This document shows positions 4,537 through 39,916 of a stretch of DNA of 39,922 nucleotides, piece by piece. The position numbers and the translations under genes are program-made. Every line of letters starts with the position of its first letter. Position 1 is the first letter of the stretch. The notes under the pieces were generated by a model. That model was not told the origin of the DNA and did not search any database. It was given only the letters and a program-made list of their open reading frames with translations. Origin of the DNA: a virus; the IMG/VR virus record IMGVR_UViG_3300042465_002878, positions 1 through 39,922 of that record; one strand, 5' to 3'.

Positions 4537-4803
4537 ATGCGGGAGCCTCGTTTTTATGAGACTCCTAGTTGTGCCACAGTCGGCGGTGACTTCTGGTTTC
4601 CTGAAAAAGAAAAGGGAGGCCTTAGTAATACTGACATAAGAACTGCAAAGTCTATTTGTGGTTCTTGTATACATAAAAGTGAGTGCGCCGAATGGGGCAT
4701 AGCAAAAGAAACATATGGTATCTGGGGCGGTCTAACTGCCGATGATCGCAAATATATTAGAAGACAAAAGCGCATTAGTATCGAGGAGGAAGACGTTGCT
4801 TGA
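4537..4803 (+). CDS. whiB: WhiB-family iron-sulfur transcriptional regulator
   Basis: The 88-residue protein has the four WhiB cysteines (Cys12, Cys41-x2-Cys44-x5-Cys50) that ligate a 4Fe-4S cluster, the GIWGG turn at 61-65, and a basic C-terminal tail (RKYIRRQKR) of the kind that contacts DNA. It therefore looks functional. WhiB proteins act together with the primary sigma factor and are practically restricted to actinobacteria and their phages, so this gene gives the host phylum. Phage WhiB proteins are known to alter host gene expression and superinfection; which targets apply here is unknown. The next gene starts within its last codons. Confidence 0.95.
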   Translation: MREPRFYETPSCATVGGDFWFPEKEKGGLSNTDIRTAKSICGSCIHKSECAEWGIAKETYGIWGGLTADDRKYIRRQKRISIEEEDVA

Positions 4804-9203: not shown

Positions 9204-9373
9204 TCTATTCTTATAGTTGTGAGTGTGGCAGCACACTAGATATTGAACGCTCTATTCACGAGGAATCTGTATCTCCTACTTGCTATGACTGCAAGAAAAC
9301 TATGGGCAGAGTGTGGTCTTCTCCCGCTATTACTTTCACAGGTAAAGGCTTCTACAGTACGGATAATAAATGA
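9200..9373 (+). CDS. FmdB-like small zinc-ribbon protein
   Basis: The 57-residue product starts MIYSYSCECGSTLDIERSI and continues with TCYDCKKTMGRVWSSPAI...FTGKGFY. This matches the FmdB/putative-regulatory zinc ribbon in layout: an opening aromatic Y-x-C-x-C strand, a second CxxC about 20 residues later, then a conserved F-x-G-x-G-F/W-Y segment. The exact role of FmdB-like proteins is not known; nucleic-acid or protein binding is presumed. Overlaps of 4 bases on both sides show tight coupling. Confidence 0.75.
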   Translation: MIYSYSCECGSTLDIERSIHEESVSPTCYDCKKTMGRVWSSPAITFTGKGFYSTDNK

Positions 9374-9999
9374 TTATATTTGATTTCTTTTCTGGGACTG
9401 GTAGTTCAACTCAGGCGTTCAAAGATGCAGGCCATACTGTTATTAGTTTTGAATTAGATAAATCTTTTGAAGCAACCGAACACGCAAATATATTTGATTT
9501 AGATGCAAAGACTCTTATATCCAAGTATGGTCAACCAGATTTTATATGGGCCAGCCCACCTTGTACTGCATTTAGCGTAGCTTCTATGGGCCACCATTGG
9601 GGCGGTGGAATAAGAGCGTATGAACCTAAGACTGAAGCAGCAAAAATAAGCCAAGAATTAGTAGCGCATACACGTAAACTTATTGTTGATCTCAATCCTA
9701 CTAAAGGCTGGCTGATGGAAAACCCTAGAGGTATGTTACGTAAATTACCTGTAGTTGAAGGCTTACCACGTACTACTGTTACTTATTGTACTTATGGGGA
9801 CACTCGTATGAAACCTACTGATTTATGGGGAATTGTACCTAACTGGATTCCACGTGTTATGTGTAAAAATGGTATGCCTTGTCACGAAGCCGCTCCTCGT
9901 GGATCTAAAACTGGAACTCAAGGACTCAAAGGTGCAAAGGAACGCTCTCGTGTTCCATATTCTTTAGGCCAAGAGATATTAGATTCAATAAATAAATAG
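9370..9999 (+). CDS. C5-cytosine-methyltransferase-like protein
   Basis: The 209-residue protein opens with an AdoMet-binding FFSGTGSSTQAF (6-17), has the catalytic-loop-like SPPCTAFS (62-69) and WLMENPRGMLRK (about 114-125), which correspond to motifs I, IV (PC) and VI (EN) of C5-cytosine methylases. The protein is shorter than canonical enzymes and lacks a recognisable target-recognition domain and the QRRRR motif, as in the phage-specific subfamily of small DNA-methylase-like proteins. It ends the forward early operon. Confidence 0.75.
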   Translation: MIIFDFFSGTGSSTQAFKDAGHTVISFELDKSFEATEHANIFDLDAKTLISKYGQPDFIWASPPCTAFSVASMGHHWGGGIRAYEPKTEAAKISQELVAHTRKLIVDLNPTKGWLMENPRGMLRKLPVVEGLPRTTVTYCTYGDTRMKPTDLWGIVPNWIPRVMCKNGMPCHEAAPRGSKTGTQGLKGAKERSRVPYSLGQEILDSINK

Positions 10000-10066: not shown

Positions 10067-10489
10067 TCAGCTCGCAAGATTTATAGTATCACATATGTTA
10101 CCGATGATCCATTCTACTACAGGTACTGCAACTGCATTACCCATTTGTTTGTAACGAGCTGAGTCAGATTGTCCAGCAGTCCAATCATCAGGGAACCCTT
10201 GAAGTCTTTCACACTCCAAAGGTGTAAGGCGGCGTACCTGAGTATTAGCAATCATTGGCATATTGTTTCCACCTGTTCCCATTCGTGCTTGTAGTGTGTT
10301 GATAACACCGCCTTGTAAGCGTATATCATCTACTCGATTACCGTAAAAGATGATCACGGTAGTTCTAATATCTCCATTATCAAATGCGTTTAGCGTAGGC
10401 ATTACCCCCCCCTGTATCCACGTCTCGTAGTCATCTTCACTCTGTGCTCGCCTACTCTTTGTGAACCACAAGTTTGTTTTCTGCAACAT
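10067..10489 (-). CDS. dcm: C5-cytosine DNA methyltransferase, C-terminal part (frameshifted)
   Basis: This frame supplies what the preceding piece lacks: KSRRAQSEDDYETW, GGVMPTLNAFDNGDIRTTV, then RLTPLECERLQGFPDDWT (target-region end and motif IX) and YKQMGNAVAVPVVEWI (motif X). The first residues before KSRRAQ (MLQKTNLWFT) are a read-through of the upstream gene in the wrong frame, so ATG 10489 is probably not a real start. An eight-base G run (10405-10412 on this strand) lies within the region coding WIQGGVMP and is intact in frame. Together with 10452-11240 it makes one methylase of about 390 residues. Confidence 0.85.
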   Translation of the reverse strand: MLQKTNLWFTKSRRAQSEDDYETWIQGGVMPTLNAFDNGDIRTTVIIFYGNRVDDIRLQGGVINTLQARMGTGGNNMPMIANTQVRRLTPLECERLQGFPDDWTAGQSDSARYKQMGNAVAVPVVEWIIGNICDTINLAS

Positions 10490-11240
10490 ATTGATTGCCT
10501 ACTCCCTTATAGTCTCGTGCTTGAAGTGAACCGATAACGACATTATCTTCAGGTCGTTTATATGTAGTAGCAGTAAGAGTTGTTACTCCTTCTGTGTACT
10601 TTGCGAAGCCTGTTTGACCAAAGCTTCTTGTAGTGCTGGCGGTAGTGTCTTGCCCCGTTTGTTGGCTCGTCGAAGGATTCCTTCGCACGCTCTTGGACTC
10701 AAAAAGAACTTCGGCAACGCCGTTGGAAGAAGAACGTCTGCCAAGGATGAAGACACGACGCCTTCGCTGGGGTACTCCGAAGTGTTGAGCATCAAGCACA
10801 CGCCATCCAATAGAATACCCGAGGTCGGCCATCGTTCCGATGACGACTCCAAAATCTCTTCCTTTGTTACTGGATAACAGACCAGGTACGTTTTCGATGA
10901 GGAAGTACTCGCTCTGCGTTTCTTCCACAATTCTTGCAATTTCCCAGAATAGCCCGCTTCTCTCGCCAGCAAGACCAGCCCTTTTGCCAGCGACTGAGAG
11001 GTCTTGGCAGGGAAATCCTCCTGTAATAATTCCTGTGCTTGGTTCAAATCCTGCTGCAATTAGGTCACTTCCCTTTACTGTAGTTACATCGTCGAATATC
11101 TTTACATCAGGAAACTGATGTGAGAGCACTGATTGGCAGTGCTTATCTATCTCTACCGAAGCTACAACTTTGACTCCGTTGCGTTGCATAGCAAGATCAA
11201 AGCCACCTACTCCTGCAAATAGTGATACACCAGTAATCAT
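10452..11240 (-). CDS. dcm: C5-cytosine DNA methyltransferase, N-terminal part (frameshifted)
   Basis: The 262-residue N-terminal piece has the standard C5-MTase motifs: LFAGVGGFDLA (motif I, residues 7-17), GGFPCQDLS with the catalytic Cys78 (motif IV), FLIENVPG (motif VI) and GVPQRRRRVFIL (motif VIII). The frame then stops after LVVHKE, before the motif IX/X part, which continues in the overlapping frame encoded by 10067-10489. Deleting one A from the AAA in the codons for HKE would give VVHKSRRAQS, which joins the two pieces smoothly and matches the usual KSRRAQS region. It is the last gene of the reverse operon, so the enzyme may be inactive unless the shift is an assembly error or is bypassed. 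Confidence 0.85.
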   Translation of the reverse strand: MITGVSLFAGVGGFDLAMQRNGVKVVASVEIDKHCQSVLSHQFPDVKIFDDVTTVKGSDLIAAGFEPSTGIITGGFPCQDLSVAGKRAGLAGERSGLFWEIARIVEETQSEYFLIENVPGLLSSNKGRDFGVVIGTMADLGYSIGWRVLDAQHFGVPQRRRRVFILGRRSSSNGVAEVLFESKSVRRNPSTSQQTGQDTTASTTRSFGQTGFAKYTEGVTTLTATTYKRPEDNVVIGSLQARDYKGVGNQYVAENKLVVHKE

Positions 11241-31160: not shown

Positions 31161-31498
31161 GTGCTAAATTCAATCTAATCTGCGAGCAAGCAACCACATT
31201 CAATTTTCAATTCTCAATCAATAACGACGCTGTTCCAATCAACCTTACTGGTTATACTGGAACTATGACAGTGCGACCATTCGTTGGTTCTAGCACTACA
31301 ACCATAACTGCTACTACTACTAATGGCTATATGGTCATTACTGGCGCTACAGGAACTGTAACAGTTACAATTTCTGCAGCACTTACAGAAGAGATTACAC
31401 CAGGTCGTTATTCCTATGACTTAGTACTAGATAGCGGATCTACTGTTACTAGATTCCTTGAAGGCTTATTTATCGTGACGGGGGCTGTAACGCTATGA
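31157..31498 (+). CDS. small beta-sandwich virion protein
   Basis: The 113-residue protein ([33 protein letters not shown] ... [44 protein letters not shown]) matches a common small phage fold with [15 protein letters not shown] and PGRYxYDLxL. Relatives sit beside collagen-like or fibre genes and look like fibre attachment or baseplate modules. It overlaps the genes on both sides by 4 bases. Confidence 0.65.
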
Positions 31499-32415
31499 CA
31501 ACCTATGTAGTTATTGAATCCATTACTCCCAACCAATCGTTGGTATTTTCAGCACAGCAAGGTCCTCAAGGAGCAGCTGGAGCCACAGGTCCTACTGGCT
31601 CCACAGGTCCTGTCGGTGCTACTGGTTCAACAGGTGCATCTGGTGCTACTGGTGTAACTGGAGCCACAGGTCCTGATGGAGCCACTGGAGCCACTGGACC
31701 TACAGGCGTAGGTGCTACTGGTGCAACAGGTCCTACAGGAGTTACAGGCGCTACAGGACCAACTGGTGCTGATAGCACAGTTGCCGGTCCTACGGGTCCT
31801 ACAGGCCCTGCAGGGGCCACAGGACCTACAGGTCCTACAGGTGCTGACAGCGTTGTTCCAGGTCCTACAGGAGCCACAGGACCAGCAGGTGCTACAGGTC
31901 CTACAGGAGCAACTGGGCCGCAAGGCGTTACAGGAGATGTCGGACCTACTGGTGTTATTGGAGCCTCTGGCCCAATCGGTGCTACTGGTGATACTGGACC
32001 AACTGGACCAACAGGCGCTACCGGACCTGCTGGTGCTACTGGACCTACAGGACCCACAGGTTTGACTGGACCTACTGGTCCAACTGGTGCTACTGGCGTT
32101 GGTAATATTGCAGGATTCAACACTCAAACTGGTACCAGTTACACACTTGTTATCGGCGATCTCAGCGATATCGTTACTCTCAATAACGCTGCTGCTATTA
32201 CACTTACAGTGCCTCCATCAGTCTTTAGTGCCAATGACCAGATACACGTAGTCCAATACGGAGCAGGTCAAGTAACCTTTGCTCAAGGCGCTGGAGTAAC
32301 TATTCTTTCAACTGGTGCAACAACGACTGCTCCCAAGTTGAGAACTAATAAGTCAGCCGCCACAGTGATTTGTACAGCGAGCAATACGTTCTTGATTGTG
32401 GGCGACATATCGTAG
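31495..32415 (+). CDS. collagen-like tail fibre protein
   Basis: The 306-residue protein has a short N-terminal segment (about 20 residues), then roughly 180 residues of collagen-type Gly-X-Y repeats (GATGPTG, GPTGPTG, GPAGATG), then a C-terminal beta domain beginning [19 protein letters not shown] and ending [13 protein letters not shown]. The repeat part should form a stiff trimeric rod; the C-terminal part resembles the trimerising end domains of such phage fibres. Thr is very frequent in the Y position, which is where bacterial collagen-like proteins are commonly O-glycosylated. Confidence 0.88.
31558..32102 (+). repeat. Gly-X-Y-encoding short-period repeat
   Basis: About 540 bases are made of 9-base-related units such as GGTCCTACAGGA/GGTGCTACTGGT coding for G-P-T and G-A-T triplets. 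The DNA is degenerate between units, so this is protein-level repetition. Repeat-number change by recombination is possible. Confidence 0.85.
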
Positions 32416-32425
32416 GATAAGCCCT

Positions 32426-33487
32426 ATGAGATTCCACGTTATCAGCCTGCCACATACCCAAACAACTAAAGATTACGTCAACTGCGCCTATACCGAAAAG
32501 GTAAGACGCTTTTGCATAATGATGAAGAGTCTAGGTCATACGGTCTACCTCTACGCTAGTGAAGATAATGAAGCACCTTGTGATGAACTTGTTACTTGTA
32601 TTACTAAGCAAGAACAAGCAGATGCACTAGAAGGCAAGCATTATACCGAAGCTGCCTTTGATAACCAATTACCGCATTGGCAGATATTCAATGCCAAAGC
32701 AATTGAAGAACTAGGCAAGCGCTTAGTAGAAAAAGATTTCATATGTGTTATCGGTGGTGCATCACATAAACCGATAGCAGATGCTTACCCCGATTATATG
32801 ACAGTTGAGTTCGGTGTTGGCTACGGTGGAGTCTTTAGTAAGTATAGAGTCTTTGAATCCTATGCTTGGATGCACAGTATTTATGCAATGTATAAAGACC
32901 CTACAGCAGTAGATGGCAACTTCTATGACGCAGTGATACCTGGTTACTTAGAACCAGAGATGTTTCCGTTGCAAGAAAAGAAAGAAGATTATTACCTATA
33001 CGTAGGTCGTATGGTAGATCGCAAAGGCATCATAGTTGCTCAACACGTTTGTAAAGAACTTGGGCTAAAACTTATAATGGCAGGACCTGGAACAGATCCC
33101 AAGATTGAATATGGTGAGTGGGTAGGACCAGTCGGGCCAGAGCAGCGAGCAAAACTAATGGGCGGTGCTATTGCACTCTTTGCCCCAACGCTTTACATAG
33201 AACCTTTTGGTAACGTAGTTATCGAAGCACAAGCCTGTGGTACTCCAACGATTACTACAGACTGGGGAGCCTTTACTGAGACTAACCCACAAGGAGTTAC
33301 CGGATATCGTTGCAGAAATGCAATGGAGTTTGCTGGTGCAACAGAGTGGGTAAAAGACTTAGACCCAGTAGCAATACATAAGAGAGCAGTAGCGTTGTAT
33401 TCATTAGAAGCTATTGCACCACAATACGAGCAATACTTTGCACGACTGCTAACTCTATGGGGAGATGGCTGGTATGAGAGGAAATAA
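32426..33487 (+). CDS. GT4-type glycosyltransferase
   Basis: The 353-residue protein (ATG 32426) has an N-terminal Rossmann part (MRFHVISLPHTQTTKDYVNC) and a C-terminal GT-B half: YLYVGRMVDRKGIIVAQHVCKELGLKLIMAGPGTD near 191-225 and the sugar-nucleotide-binding E-x7-E motif EPFGNVVIE near 258-266, followed by AQACGTPTITTDWGAFTE. These are the landmarks of GT4 retaining glycosyltransferases. A place between a collagen-like fibre and an adaptor gene suggests modification of virion proteins rather than of DNA or host wall, but acceptor and sugar are unknown. Confidence 0.88.
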   Translation: MRFHVISLPHTQTTKDYVNCAYTEKVRRFCIMMKSLGHTVYLYASEDNEAPCDELVTCITKQEQADALEGKHYTEAAFDNQLPHWQIFNAKAIEELGKRLVEKDFICVIGGASHKPIADAYPDYMTVEFGVGYGGVFSKYRVFESYAWMHSIYAMYKDPTAVDGNFYDAVIPGYLEPEMFPLQEKKEDYYLYVGRMVDRKGIIVAQHVCKELGLKLIMAGPGTDPKIEYGEWVGPVGPEQRAKLMGGAIALFAPTLYIEPFGNVVIEAQACGTPTITTDWGAFTETNPQGVTGYRCRNAMEFAGATEWVKDLDPVAIHKRAVALYSLEAIAPQYEQYFARLLTLWGDGWYERK

Positions 33488-34383
33488 TGCCAACACTTAG
33501 CGATATGATAGATGAGGTTCGCTCGTCTCTAGCAGGCTACACCCTGCGCCAAGATAGAATAACTTATCTCAATAGTGCTATTACATCTACTGCTACTGCT
33601 GTTCCTATTGGATCAAGTTCTAACTTAGCCAAAGGAATAATTGAAATTGATGATGAACTCATCTGGATTGATAACTTTAGTCAAGCAAGTAGCACACTCA
33701 ATGCAGCTCCAGGATTTGGTCGAGGCTACCAAAACACTAATGCCTCACCACACGCTCAGTATGCTCAAGTAACTCTAAGTCCTACTTTTCCTAAGAACAT
33801 TATCAAGAAGGCTATCAACGATACTATCAATAGTTTCTATCCTAAACTCTGGTCAGTTGCCTCAGTTACTTTTACCTTCAATGCAAGCCAAACAACTTAT
33901 GCGTTGCCCGATGACGTAGAGTCAATCCTTTATATGTCTTGGCAGACTACAGGCTCTAGCCTTGAGTGGTTGCCAATCAATCGTTGGCGTGCAGATCCAA
34001 TGGCAAACATTGCTACTTTCAATACTCAAAACACGGTAAACATTTATGAAAATATCCAACCTGGTAGAACTGTACAGGTTTGGTATACAACTACTCCTAA
34101 TACTTTAGACAACAGCACAGATGATTATGCAGATGTAACAGGTCTGCCAGCCTCTTCATCTGAGGTAGTAATCCTTGGTGCTTCTTATAAATTGCTATCT
34201 TATATTGACTCTGGACGAATCAATCTTAGTTCAGCAGAGGCTGACCTCAATGATACAAAGATACCAAGTACTGCAGGTGTTTCATCATCTCGTTATATCT
34301 TTGCTCTGTATCAACAAAGACTCAATGAAGAAGCATTGAAATTACAAGACAAGTACCCAATCCGTATCCACTACACCAAGTAA
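33487..34383 (+). CDS. head-tail adaptor / connector-like protein
   Basis: The 298-residue product starts PTLSDMIDEVRSSLAGYTLRQDRITYLNSAI, has a short inserted beta segment (IIEIDDELIWIDNFSQASSTLN, GFGRGYQNTNASPHA), then IKKAINDTINSFYPKLWSVASVTFTFNASQTTYALPDDVESILYM and a C-terminal helical part (YIFALYQQRLNEEALKLQ). The helix-strand layout with YxLPxDVExI and a final helix of L/A/E is that of phage adaptor (head-to-tail connector) proteins. The insert is also found in fibre-like proteins. Confidence 0.65.
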   Translation: MPTLSDMIDEVRSSLAGYTLRQDRITYLNSAITSTATAVPIGSSSNLAKGIIEIDDELIWIDNFSQASSTLNAAPGFGRGYQNTNASPHAQYAQVTLSPTFPKNIIKKAINDTINSFYPKLWSVASVTFTFNASQTTYALPDDVESILYMSWQTTGSSLEWLPINRWRADPMANIATFNTQNTVNIYENIQPGRTVQVWYTTTPNTLDNSTDDYADVTGLPASSSEVVILGASYKLLSYIDSGRINLSSAEADLNDTKIPSTAGVSSSRYIFALYQQRLNEEALKLQDKYPIRIHYTK

Positions 34384-34392
34384 GGCAGATAA

Positions 34393-35361
34393 ATGACTAG
34401 AGAATATTCAAGTATTAGCGTTGAGACAACGCTCAACAGTGGTATCAATACTACTGCAACTACTATGGTTCTTCCATCAATTGGTGCTGCTACAGCCTTA
34501 CTAGGCGGTGTATCACTAGCTCCTGGCAACGTAGATATCTTTACTGTTGCAATAGATGTAGATACCATCAACGAGGAAATCGTTTACGTAACAGAAGTAT
34601 CTGGTGACACTCTAACAATTAGCAGAGGTCAAGCTGGAACTGGAAGTGCTGGAGTATCTGGTATTGCTCATAGCGCTGGTGCATCCATCAAGCACGTACT
34701 TACTAGCGATGACCTTATCTTCTTTCGCAATAACGCCTCACCTGTAGCATCCTTCGGATTTAGCGGATCTACCTCTGGAACCACAACAGTTCAAGCAACT
34801 GCAGTAGCTGGAACTAATACGCTAACGCTACCTGCTACATCTAGTGATACTTTGGTGGGTAAGGCAACAACAGATACTTTGACTAACAAGACCCTTACTA
34901 GTCCTACTATCAATACTCCTACTATAGCCACTCCAACCATTACTGGTGGTACAAGTACAAATCCTATTCTAGTATCAGCAGAAGAGCGAACAACAGTCTC
35001 TGCTACAGCCGCAACTGGAACAATCAACTTTGATGCTGTTACTCAAGGTGTTCTATATTACACAACTAATGCTACTGCAAACTTTACACTCAATATTCGT
35101 GGTAGTTCATCGGCTACACTCAACTCAATTCTTACTACAGGAGATGCAATAACTGTTGTATTTCTCAACACTAATGGAACAACTGCTTATTATCCAACTG
35201 TCTATCAGATAGATGGATCAGCAGTAACTCCTAAGTGGCAAGGTGGAACAGCACCTAGCGCTGGTAACGCCTCATCAATAGATGCTTATTCTTTGACTAT
35301 TATAAAGACAGCAGGAACACCAACTTATACAGTACTTGCCAGCCAAACTAAATTTGCATAA
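34393..35361 (+). CDS. tail-fibre-like protein
   Basis: The 322-residue product begins REYSSISVETTLNSGINTTATTMVL, has an Ile/Thr-rich beta region, then TDTLTNKTLTSPTINTPTIATP, a repeat found in many cyanophage and aquatic phage fibres (T-N-K-T-L-T-S-P-x-I), and a C-terminal beta domain from TTVSATAATGTINFDAVTQG to the end (PTYTVLASQTKFA). It is predicted to be a beta-helical trimeric fibre; receptor binding is inferred. Confidence 0.75.
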   Translation: MTREYSSISVETTLNSGINTTATTMVLPSIGAATALLGGVSLAPGNVDIFTVAIDVDTINEEIVYVTEVSGDTLTISRGQAGTGSAGVSGIAHSAGASIKHVLTSDDLIFFRNNASPVASFGFSGSTSGTTTVQATAVAGTNTLTLPATSSDTLVGKATTDTLTNKTLTSPTINTPTIATPTITGGTSTNPILVSAEERTTVSATAATGTINFDAVTQGVLYYTTNATANFTLNIRGSSSATLNSILTTGDAITVVFLNTNGTTAYYPTVYQIDGSAVTPKWQGGTAPSAGNASSIDAYSLTIIKTAGTPTYTVLASQTKFA

Positions 35362-35369
35362 GGAGAAAA

Positions 35370-36257
35370 ATGTCACCTATTCTAGGAGCATTAGCAGGTA
35401 ATGCTGCAAGAGGTTATGGACAATTATCTAGTGGTCCAAAGTCAGTAGTAACTGGCGGAACACTTGCCTCTGACGCAACTTATTACTACCGAACTCTTAC
35501 TGCAAACGGAAACATTGTTGTATCAGGTGCTCCACTTCTTTGCGATTATTTAGTTGTTGCAGGTGGTGGTTCGGGCGCTTATGTAGGCGGTGCAAATACT
35601 GGTGGTGGCGGTGCAGGTGGATTACGAAGCGCAACAACAACTCTTACGGCTGGAACTTATAGCGCTGTTGTAGGTGGTGGTGGTGCAAGCATTAGCGTTC
35701 AAGGAAATGCTTCATCTTTCAATGGTTTGAATACAACAGGCGGTGGTGCTGGAAATAATGGAAGTAACACCATCAACGGTGGTTCAGGTGGCGGTGGAAC
35801 TTCTGCTTATGCAACAGGTAATGGTACGGGAAACTCAGGAGGATATTCACCAGTTGAAGGTTTTGCTGGTGGAAGCGCTAGCGGTACTGCCAGTCAAGGC
35901 GGTGGTGGTGGAGGTGGTGCATCAACAGTTGGTAGCGCTTTTTCGGGTAATACAGGCGGTGCAGGCGGTAACGGGTCGTCTGCGTTTTCATCTTGGGGTA
36001 GCGCAACTAGCACGGGTCAAAATGTAACCGGTACTTATTATTATGCAGGTGGCGGTGGTGCTGGTGGGTCAACTAGCGGTGGAACGGGTGGTTATGGCGG
36101 TGGCGCAAGCGGAACTACAATACAAACAGCCATAAATGCAACTGCAAATACGGGTGGTGGTGGAGGAGGGTTTTATTCATCAGGCGGTGGTTACAGTGGT
36201 GGCGGTCAAGGTGGATCAGGAATCTTTATTATTCGTTACTTGAAATCGGCGGTATAA
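35370..36257 (+). CDS. glycine-rich fibre/adhesin protein (module B only)
   Basis: The 295-residue product has a short N-terminal part (SPILGALAGNAARGYGQLSSGPKSVVTGGTLASDATYYYRTL) followed by the glycine-rich B module: CDYLVVAGGGSGAYVGG, then TTTLTAGTYSAVVGGGG, YSPVEGFAGG and the ending GSGIFIIRYLKS. The same landmarks occur in two later genes. Gly-rich domains with long G-G runs are known from distal phage adhesins where they form polyglycine helices. No module A is present in this gene. Confidence 0.7.
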   Translation: MSPILGALAGNAARGYGQLSSGPKSVVTGGTLASDATYYYRTLTANGNIVVSGAPLLCDYLVVAGGGSGAYVGGANTGGGGAGGLRSATTTLTAGTYSAVVGGGGASISVQGNASSFNGLNTTGGGAGNNGSNTINGGSGGGGTSAYATGNGTGNSGGYSPVEGFAGGSASGTASQGGGGGGGASTVGSAFSGNTGGAGGNGSSAFSSWGSATSTGQNVTGTYYYAGGGGAGGSTSGGTGGYGGGASGTTIQTAINATANTGGGGGGFYSSGGGYSGGGQGGSGIFIIRYLKSAV

Positions 36258-36258
36258 A

Positions 36259-36813
36259 ATGCCAATTCTAGGAATTATGGCTTCAGCAATGTCTGGCAAT
36301 CTGTGGGCACCTGCTGGTGCCTATGATTCTATTTCTAGTATAACTCTATCTGCTTCTGCATCTAGCATTACTTTTAGTGGGATACCTAGCACCTATACTC
36401 ATTTGCAAATTAGATACTTATGTAATACAACTCGCGTTGGTGGTGCTAGTGGTTCAGGAGTAATTGAGTTCAATGGCGACACAACTGTTGCCAATTATTC
36501 AACACACGCGCTTTATGGTATTGGCTCAGGAAGCGGAGCAGCAGCAGGATACGCAAATAATAATTACAGTATTTGGAATTATGGCGATACAACTACTTAT
36601 GTTGCTGGCGTTGTAGATGTTTTAGATTATGCAAATACAAATAAATATAAAACAATACGAAATCTAACAGGTTATGACCAAAATGGAGCAGGACAAGTTG
36701 GTTTAGTTTCTATGGCTTGGCGTAACACCGCAGCCGTCAGTTCAATTGTGCTAACTCCTAGTGGTTATTCTTTCAATACCAACTCATCCTTCGCCCTATA
36801 CGGAGTAAAATAA
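36259..36813 (+). CDS. fibre module A protein (stand-alone beta domain)
   Basis: The 184-residue protein is a beta-rich domain: SISSITLSASASSITFSGIPSTYTHLQIRY, FNGDTTVANYSTHALYG, YKTIRNLTGYDQNG, SMAWRNTAAVSSIVLTPSGYSFNTNSSFALYGVK. The order ITFSxIPxxYTxLxIxx / FNGDTxxNYS / WRxTxAxxSIxLxP / FxLYG recurs as the N-terminal half of the next two genes. It lacks the glycine-rich B module. It is probably a fibre tip or decoration domain. Confidence 0.68.
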   Translation: MPILGIMASAMSGNLWAPAGAYDSISSITLSASASSITFSGIPSTYTHLQIRYLCNTTRVGGASGSGVIEFNGDTTVANYSTHALYGIGSGSGAAAGYANNNYSIWNYGDTTTYVAGVVDVLDYANTNKYKTIRNLTGYDQNGAGQVGLVSMAWRNTAAVSSIVLTPSGYSFNTNSSFALYGVK

Positions 36814-36814
36814 T

Positions 36815-38182
36815 ATGGCAACTAATACTTATGTAGCGTTAGCAACTACAACTACAGCATCAAGTCAGGCATCGGTTACTTTCAATTCATTTACTGGTTA
36901 CACCGATTTAGTTATTGTTTGCAATGGCGGTTCAAGTACATCAGCAGATTTACACGTGCAATTCAACGGCGATACTGCCACTAACTACTCACGAACCGTA
37001 CTTACGGGTAACGGTACAGCAGCAAGTTCATCAAGACAAACTTCAGTGGCTTATATTCGTGTTGATAATGAGGGTATTTTGAATACATCTTTCCCTAATC
37101 AAAATGCAATCATAAATATAATGAATTACTCAAATGCAACTACTTACAAAACGGTGTTAGCACGAGCCAATAACGCTGCTGCTGGTACAGATGCTGCTGT
37201 TGGTCTATGGCGTAGTACGGCAGCAATTACTAGCATCTTGCTATTTCCCAATGTTGGTACTTTCACCAATGGCACAACTCTTACACTCTACGGGATCCTT
37301 GCAGAAGGTGGCGCCAAAGCAACTGGCGGTGTTGTCACTTCTGACTCAACATATTATTACCATACCTTCTTAGCCTCTGGAACATTTACTCCAAAGTCAA
37401 CACTGTCTTGCGATGTGTTAGTTGTTGCAGGTGGTGGTGGTGGTGGAGGAGGTGGTTCTACTTACGCTTCTGGAGGTGGCGGTGGTGCTGGTGGGTATAG
37501 AACTACAACATCTTTATCTGTTTCAACTGCAACAACAGTAACTGTTGGCTCTGGTGGAGCAGGTGGGCTAAATGCTTATACTACAACAAGTCTTGGAACA
37601 AAAGGAAATAATTCTGTTTTTTCATCTATTACATCATCTGGTGGTGGAGCAGGAACTGGCTTTGGTGGAGCAGTAGCAACCTCTGGTGGATCTGGTGGCG
37701 GTGGTGCTGGTTACAGTCTTGTATCTGGCGCTCAAACTGGAGCATCAGGTAACTTTGGAAGTTATTCACCTGTTGAAGGTTATGGTGGTGGTAACGGTGG
37801 AACTGGCGGTTCAACTAGCGCTGTTGGTGGTGGTGGTGGTGGCGTTGGTGGACTCGGAGTTTCAGGAGCAGCAACAGCACTAAATAGCAATGGTGTAGCA
37901 GGTGGCATTGGTTCTAATTCTGTTTCATCTTGGGCAACCGCAACTGCAACTGGTGTGTCTGGTTATTATGCAAGTGGTGGTGGTAGTGGTGGCAATGGAG
38001 GTACTGGCGGTTCTGCGGGAACAGGCGGTGGTGGAGCAGGAGGTACTGGTAATGCAAATGGTTCTACAGCAACAGCAAATACTGGCTCAGGTGGTGGTGG
38101 TGCTGGTGGTGGAGCAAGCGGCGGAGGAACTTTTGGCGGCGCAGGCGGATCAGGCATTGTCATTGTTAGATATGCAAAGTAA
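36815..38182 (+). CDS. glycine-rich fibre/adhesin protein (modules A + B)
   Basis: The 455-residue protein has A (residues ~15-165: SVTFNSFTGYTDLVIVCNGG, FNGDTATNYSRTV, GLWRSTAAITSILLFP, LYGI) and then B (from CDVLVVAGGGGGGGGG to GSGIVIVRYAK) with GGYRTTTSLSVSTATTVTVG, FSSITSSGGGAG and YSPVEGYGGG. It begins 1 base after the previous stop. The A+B organisation repeats in the next gene, indicating duplication. Confidence 0.72.
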   Translation: MATNTYVALATTTTASSQASVTFNSFTGYTDLVIVCNGGSSTSADLHVQFNGDTATNYSRTVLTGNGTAASSSRQTSVAYIRVDNEGILNTSFPNQNAIINIMNYSNATTYKTVLARANNAAAGTDAAVGLWRSTAAITSILLFPNVGTFTNGTTLTLYGILAEGGAKATGGVVTSDSTYYYHTFLASGTFTPKSTLSCDVLVVAGGGGGGGGGSTYASGGGGGAGGYRTTTSLSVSTATTVTVGSGGAGGLNAYTTTSLGTKGNNSVFSSITSSGGGAGTGFGGAVATSGGSGGGGAGYSLVSGAQTGASGNFGSYSPVEGYGGGNGGTGGSTSAVGGGGGGVGGLGVSGAATALNSNGVAGGIGSNSVSSWATATATGVSGYYASGGGSGGNGGTGGSAGTGGGGAGGTGNANGSTATANTGSGGGGAGGGASGGGTFGGAGGSGIVIVRYAK

Positions 38183-38191
38183 GGGAAACTA

Positions 38192-39553
38192 ATGCCAGCA
38201 AATTACGTACTCCTAGAACGCGTCACAGTAGGCGAGACTGCTGTATCCAGCATTACCTTCAACTCAATCCCTCAGACTGGCTATACCGATTTGAAGATTG
38301 TGGCTAGCGTAAGAGGAAGCGTCGCTTCTTTTGGAAGTTTGTTAGCATCATTCAATGGCTCTACTACTACATTTACTGCTAAATATTTATCAGGTAATGG
38401 AAGCGCTGCTTCAAGTGGAAGTTTGGCAAGATTAGCAGGTGAGTTCAACAGTTCTACATCAACTGCTAATACATTTTCCAATTTAGAAATCTATATTCCA
38501 AATTACACAAGTTCAAACAATAAATCTTATTCAGCAGACGACGTGACAGAGACAAATGGAACAACTGCTTATATGGCTTTGACTGCTGGATTATGGTCGA
38601 CTACATCTGCAATCACTTCTATTACTTTGACACCTGATTCAGGCAATATTGTCCAATACTCAACCTTTTCCCTATACGGTCTTGCAGCCCTAGGCACTAC
38701 ACCAACTAAGGCACCAAAGGCTTCTGGCGGATCAATTATCCAGACCGACGGTACTTATTGGTACCACGCCTTCCTTGCCTCTGGCACATTTACACCAGCC
38801 GTAGGGTTGAGTTGTGACGTGTTGGTAGTAGCAGGTGGTGGAGGTGGTGGTGGTGGAGTTGGCGGTGGAGGTGGAGCAGGCGGTTATAGAACCACAACAT
38901 CTCTTTCAGTTTCAACTGCAACAAGCATAACCGTTGGTGGGGGTGGTGCAGGTGGTACTGGAAATTATCCATCTACTACCAAAGGAACAGAAGGTTCCAA
39001 TAGTATATTTTCAAGCATTACATCATCAGGCGGTGGTGGAGGTGCTAAGGCTGCAAGTGCAGCAGGTGCTGGTGGTTCTGGTGGTGGTGCAGGTTCTGAA
39101 TCAACATCAACTGCTGGTGCAGGTAACGCAGGTTCTTATTCACCCGTTGAAGGTTATGCAGGTGGTGGACCAGGTTGGGATGCTCCCAACTATCCTGGCA
39201 GTGGTGGTGGTGGTGCGGGTGGAGTAGGTGTTCGTGCTGCAAGTGCTTCAAGTTCTGGTGGCGCAGGTGGTGTTGGTTCATTTACGGCAATTTCTGGTGG
39301 CGCAACAACTGGCGTAGGAGTTTTATCTGGCGGTAATTATTACTTTGCTGGCGGTGGTGGCGGTGGAGTTTATGTAAGCGGTTCTGGTGGTGCTGGTGGA
39401 CTTGGCGGCGGTGGTGCTGCTGGAGCGCTAGGCGCTTCAGGAACTGCTGCTACACCTAATACTGGTGGCGGTGGTGGAGGCTGTTCAAATAACTCTGGTC
39501 AAGTTGCTGGTAAAGGTGGTTCAGGTATTGTAATTATTCGGTATGCGGTCTAA
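38192..39553 (+). CDS. glycine-rich fibre/adhesin protein (modules A + B), paralogue
   Basis: The 453-residue protein repeats the plan of the preceding gene: A part with SITFNSIPQTGYTDLKIVASVRG, FNGSTTTF, GLWSTTSAITSITLTP and LYGLAAL; B part with CDVLVVAGGGGGGGG, GGYRTTTSLSVSTATSITVG, FSSITSSGGGGG, YSPVEGYAGGGPGW and GSGIVIIRYAV. B parts are much more alike than A parts. It differs by its own insert near NYPGSGGGGAGGVGVRA, where receptor contact may vary. Confidence 0.72.
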   Translation: MPANYVLLERVTVGETAVSSITFNSIPQTGYTDLKIVASVRGSVASFGSLLASFNGSTTTFTAKYLSGNGSAASSGSLARLAGEFNSSTSTANTFSNLEIYIPNYTSSNNKSYSADDVTETNGTTAYMALTAGLWSTTSAITSITLTPDSGNIVQYSTFSLYGLAALGTTPTKAPKASGGSIIQTDGTYWYHAFLASGTFTPAVGLSCDVLVVAGGGGGGGGVGGGGGAGGYRTTTSLSVSTATSITVGGGGAGGTGNYPSTTKGTEGSNSIFSSITSSGGGGGAKAASAAGAGGSGGGAGSESTSTAGAGNAGSYSPVEGYAGGGPGWDAPNYPGSGGGGAGGVGVRAASASSSGGAGGVGSFTAISGGATTGVGVLSGGNYYFAGGGGGGVYVSGSGGAGGLGGGGAAGALGASGTAATPNTGGGGGGCSNNSGQVAGKGGSGIVIIRYAV

Positions 39554-39568
39554 GGAAAAGGAAAACAA

Positions 39569-39916
39569 ATGTCACATTGGGCAGAGATAGATTCAAACAA
39601 CATCGTCTTGCGTGTACTCGTAGGCGATAACAACGATCCAGCAGGAGATGAGGGCTACCAATGGTTGCTCGATAATCTTGGCGGTACTTGGGTCAAGACA
39701 AGTTACAACGCAAACATTCGCAAAAACTATGCAGGTATTGGCTATTCATACGACTCGGTACTAGATGCCTTTATTCCACCTAAGCCATTTGAGTCTTGGG
39801 TACTCAACGAAGAGACTTGTCAATGGGATGCACCAAAGCCTCGCCCTGATTCAATTGATGGCGAGATGTGGTTATGGAATGAAACAAACCTAGATTGGGA
39901 GATAGCAAATGGATAA
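39569..39916 (+). CDS. tail-fibre-assembly-like protein (cyanophage type)
   Basis: The 115-residue protein (SHWAEIDSNNIVLRVLVGDNNDP...NIRKNYAGIGYSYDSVLDAFIPPKPFESWVLNEETCQWDAPKPRP) is a well-recognisable type in cyanophages and other aquatic phages: HxAExDxNNxV, FRKNYAGIGYxYD, AFIxPxPxxSWxLNExTxxWxAP. It is usually found near fibre genes and is thought to help fibre assembly or attachment. The AAGGAAAAGG upstream supplies a ribosome site. Confidence 0.78.
   Translation: MSHWAEIDSNNIVLRVLVGDNNDPAGDEGYQWLLDNLGGTWVKTSYNANIRKNYAGIGYSYDSVLDAFIPPKPFESWVLNEETCQWDAPKPRPDSIDGEMWLWNETNLDWEIANG

Follow-up and report, generated by a model that had tools for sequence, protein, structure and literature searches.

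The stretch of DNA analysed here, referred to as the window, is the entire 39,922-base IMG/VR virus record IMGVR_UViG_3300042465_002878 (43.8% guanine plus cytosine), and it carries an array of four consecutive open reading frames (ORFs) composed of two protein modules, designated A and B. The first gene, g1 (35370-36257, 295 residues), encodes a B module, the second, g2 (36259-36813, 184 residues), encodes an A module, and both g3 (36815-38182, 455 residues) and g4 (38192-39553, 453 residues) encode an A followed by a B. This layout had been read from the letters alone in an original prediction that treated the locus as a shuffled array of adhesin modules, and it was borne out here, with two corrections: g1 and g2 each begin with a short N-terminal leader as well, and the A modules represent three old position-specific paralogues, not interchangeable copies. 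The A domains of g2, g3 and g4 are named A1, A2 and A3 after the slots that they occupy (Table 1).

Table 1. Features of the adhesin array and its flanks, in window positions. E7 and F5 are the cultured Planktophila phages LanE43-AprE7 and LanE43-AprF5 (OX376640 and OX376641; loci L162 and L163).
Feature	Position	Strand	Evidence
SU10-type adaptor-like protein, conserved locus anchor (upstream flank)	33487..34383	+	PF24175 SU10_adaptor, E 5.7e-8
Tail-fibre-like gene directly 5' of array	34393..35361	+	phrog_38058 tail fiber, E 1.4e-16; E7/F5 homologue in same place
g1 N-terminal leader (MSPILGALAGNAARGYGQL...), proposed docking peptide of stand-alone B protein	35370..35444	+	Leader types common to A1, absent from A2/A3; docking putative
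g1 B domain, putative stand-alone glycine-rich adhesin	35445..36242	+	PF21722, E 1.9e-9 (passes cut-off); related to the other B modules even with glycines fixed
g2 N-terminal leader (MPILGIMASAMSGNL), proposed A1 docking peptide	36259..36303	+	Strict leader motif
g2 A domain, slot 1 (A1)	36304..36810	+	First A gene of the triplet; position-1 clade pattern; full-length match to E7 A1
g3 A domain, slot 2 (A2)	36815..37312	+	Second A gene; best match E7 A2, 47%; position-2 clade pattern
g3 B domain, glycine-rich tip on A2	37316..38176	+	PF21722, E 2.6e-12
Conserved CDVLVVAGGGGGG neck of B in g3, tip-exchange breakpoint region in relatives	37410..37447	+	Mapped here by homology
CDVLVVAGGGGGG-type B neck in g1 and g4	g1 35541-35573; g4 38813-38851	+	By homology to breakpoint region of relatives
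g4 A domain, slot 3 (A3)	38192..38698	+	Third A gene; best match E7 A3, 43%; position-3 clade pattern
g4 B domain, glycine-rich tip on A3	38717..39547	+	PF21722, E 1.8e-17; AlphaFold2 pLDDT 91.1; VIA Z 15.4 to 9d93_Qb, 14.9 to 7ypx
Conserved downstream gene, right site boundary	39569..39916	+	phrog_7759, E 9.4e-42; E7 homologue 3' of array 43% identical

The A modules of the three genes are related to one another, with 52 of 151, 52 of 154 and 63 of 156 identical residues in the pairwise alignments (33-40%), values 12-20 standard deviations (SD) above those of shuffled sequences. The B modules share 125-167 identical residues over 251-271 (49-62%), far outside the range of shuffles, and A aligned with B gives background levels. 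The resemblance among the B modules is not a matter of glycine composition alone, because with all glycines kept in place during shuffling it still exceeds the shuffled values by 11-20 SD. Neither of the two outcomes that the original prediction had named as refuting it, unrelated A parts or a B similarity owed to glycine only, was thus encountered.

Two scans of IMG/VR yielded about 160 loci, most of them metagenomic, in which arrays were called with hidden Markov models (HMMs) for A and B, and two further scans, which used A1 and g1 as queries, supplied a hold-out set. Only complete, non-identical arrays were counted; these are related by descent, and the counts do not represent independent events. 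In the first set, 72 of 74 complete arrays possess exactly three consecutive A genes, arranged as A-AB-AB (30 arrays), A-A-AB (25) or A-A-A (17), and in the hold-out set A1, A2 and A3 follow one another in order in 45 of 51 new arrays. For all data combined, the ordered triplet is present in 118 of 127 arrays, and a further array is a double triplet. Among the exceptions inspected, L291 is truncated by the end of the contig, L290 lacks its upstream part behind a small inserted ORF, L255 has three consecutive A genes, the first with a leader, that are labelled differently by the HMMs, and L202 and L234 each contain one additional A-like gene. Trees were inferred in a quick mode, with support from the Shimodaira-Hasegawa-like approximate likelihood-ratio test (SH-aLRT), and the tree of 213 A domains resolves into three clades that coincide with gene position, requiring only 2 changes of position label (the minimum) against a shuffled mean of 100.8. 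Because order and copy number are fixed and the clades match the positions, no reordering of the A parts has taken place inside the array, and the random shuffling or splitting of modules that had been envisaged is not supported. At this site the three A genes are also present or absent as a unit: among 30 adaptor-anchored loci bounded on both sides and not chosen for A, 13 carry all three and 17 carry none.

The B domains attached to A are nested with respect to slot. B is found on A3 alone in 30 arrays and on both A2 and A3 in 35, never on A2 alone and never on A1; the restriction of B on A2 to arrays with B on A3 (35 vs 0) gives a Fisher p of about 1e-12, for arrays that share ancestry. The B domains are less tied to slot than the A domains, their tree showing 20 changes of position label against a minimum of 2 and a chance expectation of 56. 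In one case the DNA of the A2-B of L065 is about 91% identical to that of the A3-B of L066, and the A2 parts of the same two loci align with each other, slot for slot, at about 81%, a pattern that marks a swap of B tips between slots. Single A cassettes, judged from sequence comparison, move between phages as well, always into their own slot, because array pairs share one A at high identity yet diverge at another: 9 of 11 pairs with one A at at least 90% identity differ below 65% at another A, and in L195/L197 and L200/L212 A1 and A3 were kept and A2 is foreign. Across phages, same-slot A domains average 45-46% identity. The view that B is conserved and A divergent thus holds within the window genome but not across phages, where the swapped B tips are very diverse.

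Recombination had been expected at the border between A and B. A sliding comparison of L065 and L066 places the switch at about nucleotides 570-660 of the gene, with A ending at 507, and in the A3-B of L006 and L007 the switch lies at about nucleotides 660-690. In both cases examined the exchange point maps about 100-150 nucleotides inside B, close to the predicted border but within the conserved B start, which rules out the boundary itself as the site of these two events. The conserved start of B (through CDVLVVAGGG) therefore stays with A, and the glycine-rich tip is exchanged. The original proposal of alternative tips generated by recombination thus survives for the tips and fails for the A modules, with their fixed order and position-specific clades.

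The N-terminal leaders provide a further asymmetry among the A proteins. A1 always has an extension (median 20 extra residues, range 9-113), and A2 and A3 as a rule have none. Classified by regular expressions, the leaders comprise a PILGIxAS type, a type ending in MLAGN and a Pfam-supported fibronectin-III type, and the stand-alone B genes are preceded by the same types as A1. Under its strict pattern, the PILGIxAS type is carried by 29 of 72 A1 proteins and 15 of 46 stand-alone B proteins, and by none of 144 A2/A3 proteins and none of 1932 other ORFs; the MLAGN-ending type is likewise absent from other ORFs. Within L008, L040, L044, L049, L072 and L103, the leader types of A1 and of the stand-alone B agree. 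As these types are common to A1 and the stand-alone B and absent from A2 and A3, the distribution is read most simply as two separate tail attachments, one by A1 and one by the stand-alone B, with A2 and A3 relying on A1.

Profile searches assign the B domains of g1, g3 and g4 to PF21722 Gly_rich_2 at 38.3, 47.7 and 64.6 bits (curated cut-off 24.3 bits), and g2 gave no PF21722 match in the same Pfam search; PHROG 2295 spans the A and B of g4 as a single family of unknown function. An AlphaFold2 model of g4 (74 relatives) has a mean predicted local distance difference test (pLDDT) score of 91.1 and a predicted template modelling (pTM) score of 0.77, and its glycine-rich region contains nearly no helix or strand despite being modelled at high confidence. 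In support of the original prediction, B is modelled as a glycine-rich lattice domain, with the fold of tail-tip chain Q of mycobacteriophage Bxb1 (9D93, 9d93_Qb; Z 15.4 over 178 residues, 36% identity) and of the Pam3 fibre gp24 (7YPX; Z 14.9, 2.5 Å over 177 residues, 28% identity, model residues 187-453). The glycine-rich domain of ALK matches at Z 7.2. PDB sequence searches with B returned weak Pam3 matches only, in part driven by glycine. In BFVD, B is present in many phages, Halorubrum phage HF2 among them, and the entire A+B architecture recurs in an uncultured Caudovirales protein. By analogy with Pam3, the variable outer loops of B would bind the host.

The A domains are predicted to be all-beta, homologous beta-sandwiches, and they belong to no Pfam or NCBIfam family. 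Fold comparisons retrieved generic matches only, to C-terminal domains of GH32 enzymes, galectins and C1q-like proteins (Z up to 7.9), and assignment of A by fold was dropped as uninformative. PDB sequence searches with A returned nothing, tblastn searches of 50,697 phage records with g2 and g4 found matches only in E7 and F5, a single-protein scan with E7 A2 met 4 loci only, and a bacterial genome scan with A3 gave no confirmed match. A-like domains also occur outside the triplets, at the C-terminus of fibre-like genes starting MT(K/R)ARD(L/V)(A/S)N (L202 6801-7661, L141 6049-6732, L154 5482-6135).

These observations can be brought together in a model in which the three beta-sandwich paralogues A1, A2 and A3 would assemble as a heteromer, most simply a 1:1:1 heterotrimer, that docks to the tail via the short N-terminal leader unique to A1 among the A proteins. 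A TNF-like and glycine-rich B domain, with outer loops that would contact the host surface, may be present at the C-terminus of A3 and of A2, such that the assembly would bear zero, one or two tips, two in the window phage, and the stand-alone B protein g1 would dock separately through its own leader as a further adhesin. Diversity would arise through slot-faithful exchange of single A subunits together with exchange of B tips through the conserved B start. An obligate heteromer with one anchor is suggested because the number and order of the A genes are fixed, their presence at this site is all-or-none, each triplet has one leader, the tips are nested and exchange respects the slots. The arrangement as a whole, comprising the heteromer docked via A1, its zero to two glycine-rich tips and the separate B adhesin, has in our judgement a somewhat better than even chance of being correct. 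A more demanding formulation, in which an obligate heterotrimer has one subunit holding the tail and two bearing exchangeable polyglycine tips (zero, one or two), with combinatorial receptor specificity produced as slot-locked subunits recombine singly in a shared gene pool, is put forward tentatively, its chances lying slightly below even.

The L116 array offers a structural view of this assembly, as its A1, A2 and A3 genes lie in one frame. Both intervening stops are TAG and were read as Q, and the read-through served as a single-chain surrogate for a multimer, with an alignment of 19 in-frame rows confined to in-frame triples and A2-A3 pairs. The resulting AlphaFold model has a mean pLDDT of 76.7 and a pTM of 0.72, compared with about 0.35 by our own estimate for three equal, randomly placed domains, from which AlphaFold appears fairly sure of the relative placement of the three domains. 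The model supports contact among A1, A2 and A3, and does so without separating a hetero from a homo preference. Several points weigh against the heteromer. The read-through tethers the domains in a single chain, with two stops read as Q and only 19 aligned sequences; A has no discriminating structural match (best Z 7.9) that would place it in a trimeric fold class; and A need not be heteromeric everywhere, since A-like domains stand alone on other fibre genes (L202, L141, L154).

Those lone A-like domains would equally suit an arrangement in which A1, A2 and A3 each build their own homotrimeric appendage, perhaps at different tail sites or acting sequentially, with the gene order simply an inherited operon order. 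Phage fibres are usually homotrimers, as exemplified by Pam3 gp24 (PMC9608196), and the slots are exchanged independently, both of which are in keeping with separate fibres. Yet A2 and A3 have neither a leader nor another N-terminal docking region, the three A genes are present together or absent together at the site, B on A2 is never seen without B on A3, and the L116 read-through packs the three domains together, and we regard three separate fibres as unlikely. The locus might alternatively be a cassette array shuffled by duplication, fission and fusion to yield alternative receptor-binding tips, a reading that fits the passage of B between slots in L065 and L066, the mixed positions in the B tree and the exchange of single A genes. 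Clades of B confined to single slots, which would count against it for B, are not seen; for A it is largely refuted by the fixed order and copy number and by the position clades, which leaves it improbable overall.

The heteromeric adhesin must also be set against a purely structural role, in which the proteins would decorate the tail or form a baseplate shell that stabilises it and the glycine-rich domains would be spacers with no part in receptor binding. Precedent for this exists in gp35, gp36 and gp37 of phage Mysterious, three consecutive beta-sandwich proteins whose heterotrimer builds a baseplate bowl (PMC13252515). High divergence and single-cassette exchange speak against it, however, as do the position of the site in a variable island (PMC10202952) and the B fold, which is common to receptor-recognition fibre tips (PMC9608196), and we hold such a role to be improbable to much the same degree as the shuffled array.

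If the heteromeric assembly is real, a phage could vary one adhesin subunit at a time, which would explain why gene order in a variable host-recognition island remains strict despite sequence exchange, and the assembly would constitute a natural mix-and-match receptor binder. Actinobacteria of the acI/Nanopelagicales lineage are among the commonest freshwater bacteria, and to our knowledge no receptors have been identified for their phages. The present analysis offers a list of parts, namely a putative anchoring gene, tip-bearing genes and tip-exchange sites, and the locus is open to test now because the cultured phages E7 and F5 carry it.

Beyond the array, the window encodes a WhiB-like ORF (4537-4800), a sigma-70 region 4 protein, CHAP, MT-A70 and DnaG-type genes, a terminase and a capsid gene. 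Its adaptor protein shares 46% identity with the adaptors of E7 and F5 and 36-38% with those of Streptomyces Beephvirinae phages, and on the strength of this identity and the gene content the window phage is assigned to the freshwater actinophages as kin of the cultured phages described previously (PMC10202952). The phrog_7759 gene at the right boundary gave no significant match in a PDB sequence search and, as a guess only, might encode an assembly helper or structural protein. Shortly upstream of the array lie a collagen-like tail protein with long G-x-y repeats (31495-32415) and, between it and the adaptor gene, a group 1 glycosyltransferase gene (32396-33487), which adjoins tail cassettes in relatives too. 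A proteasome-like (Ntn-hydrolase) protein is encoded at 2256-2813 (Pfam Proteasome, E 1.5e-12), and pieces of a C5 cytosine methylase lie on both strands at 9370-9999 and 10067-11240, possibly as two genes or one broken gene. General family scans, which included no dedicated search, gave no match among the window ORFs scanned to the reverse transcriptase or invertase families that would mark a diversity-generating retroelement or a recombinase-switched tail fibre.

Among the relatives, the A triplet also occupies a second site (L255 1334-2973; L141 1926-3957), after a collagen-like gene and a 101-residue ORF and upstream of a glycosyltransferase or stand-alone B gene, and therefore acts like a mobile cassette. 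Small ORFs that by appearance resemble homing-type (HNH) nucleases, and are putative as such, lie between A2 and A3 in L141 (3029-3442) and just upstream of the A3-B gene in L290 (209-631). More than one A-containing triplet, as A AB AB twice, is found on the contigs L021 and L050, one of which is a 136-kb record.

Among the closest known counterparts is the variable 5-kb island of E7 and F5, described as part of a tail fibre, two collagen-like proteins and three DUF2541 proteins with a possible role in host recognition (PMC10202952). The site and gene set are those of the window array, the order in E7 being fibre, B, B, A1, A2, A3 and a homologue of the window gene at 39569; the island differs in that its A2 and A3 lack B, its stand-alone B genes number two and its leader is of another type. 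Because order and number correspond, the collagen-like genes must be the B genes and the DUF2541 genes the A triplet. Single-sequence hmmscan found no match to DUF2541 (PF10807) in g2, g3 and g4 up to E 1, or in E7 A1 up to E 0.01. The public records OX376640 and OX376641, which belong to the first Planktophila phages to be cultured, are unannotated in the collection used and give 'Caudovirales sp. ct2KA10' in the organism field, the description line naming LanE43-AprE7 and LanE43-AprF5.

With Pam3 gp24 (7YPX/7YFW, PMC9608196) the array shares the fold of B, a conserved glycine-rich stem with variable outer loops. However, gp24 is a single homotrimeric protein with an N-terminal helical domain, whereas B in the window follows a beta-sandwich A or a short leader and sits on two of three paralogues. 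As A is all beta and the g4 model contains no helix of at least four residues before residue 370, and thus nothing resembling the Pam3-type N-terminal helical bundle, only the tip domain is common to the Pam3 fibre. The polyglycine adhesin gp38 of Salmonella phage S16 (6F45, cited in PMC9608196) likewise uses a lattice of glycine-rich loops for host recognition, but it is a separate tip protein on gp37 with another middle domain; 6F45 is not among the structural matches listed for the g4 model, a listing that does not exclude it. Such a tip in an actinophage had been thought new. The model indicates otherwise, as chain Q of the Bxb1 tail tip (9D93) has the B fold in an actinophage protein with its own N-terminal leader, encoded by a single gene with no A domain or triplet seen. 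By length and composition chain Q is probably gp33, a 267-residue glycine-rich minor tail protein, and the link to it is structural only, since the B HMM fails to pick up gp33 in a profile search.

Two further systems resemble the proposed assembly in its threefold plan. The virophage DSLV2 tail is reported to contain three consecutive proteins that form a 1:1:1 heterotrimer and bind the cell surface (PMC12724248); it belongs to an unrelated virus and has a T4 gp37-like fold, and the portions of text searched mention no glycine-rich tips. In mycobacteriophage Mysterious, gp35, gp36 and gp37 form a heterotrimeric baseplate accessory complex (PMC13252515), and three consecutive beta-sandwich genes, by all-beta models, are what 118 of 127 arrays possess. 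The Mysterious complex, compared here by description, differs in that it forms part of a siphophage baseplate bowl and has no glycine-rich tips described, and a 1:1:1 heterotrimer may apply to the array too, for which the single-chain surrogate gave a pTM of 0.72. A literature search found no published description of a three-gene A1-A2-A3 set beyond the island of E7 and F5 (PMC10202952), and the triplet in fixed order, with its nested tips, is apparently new.

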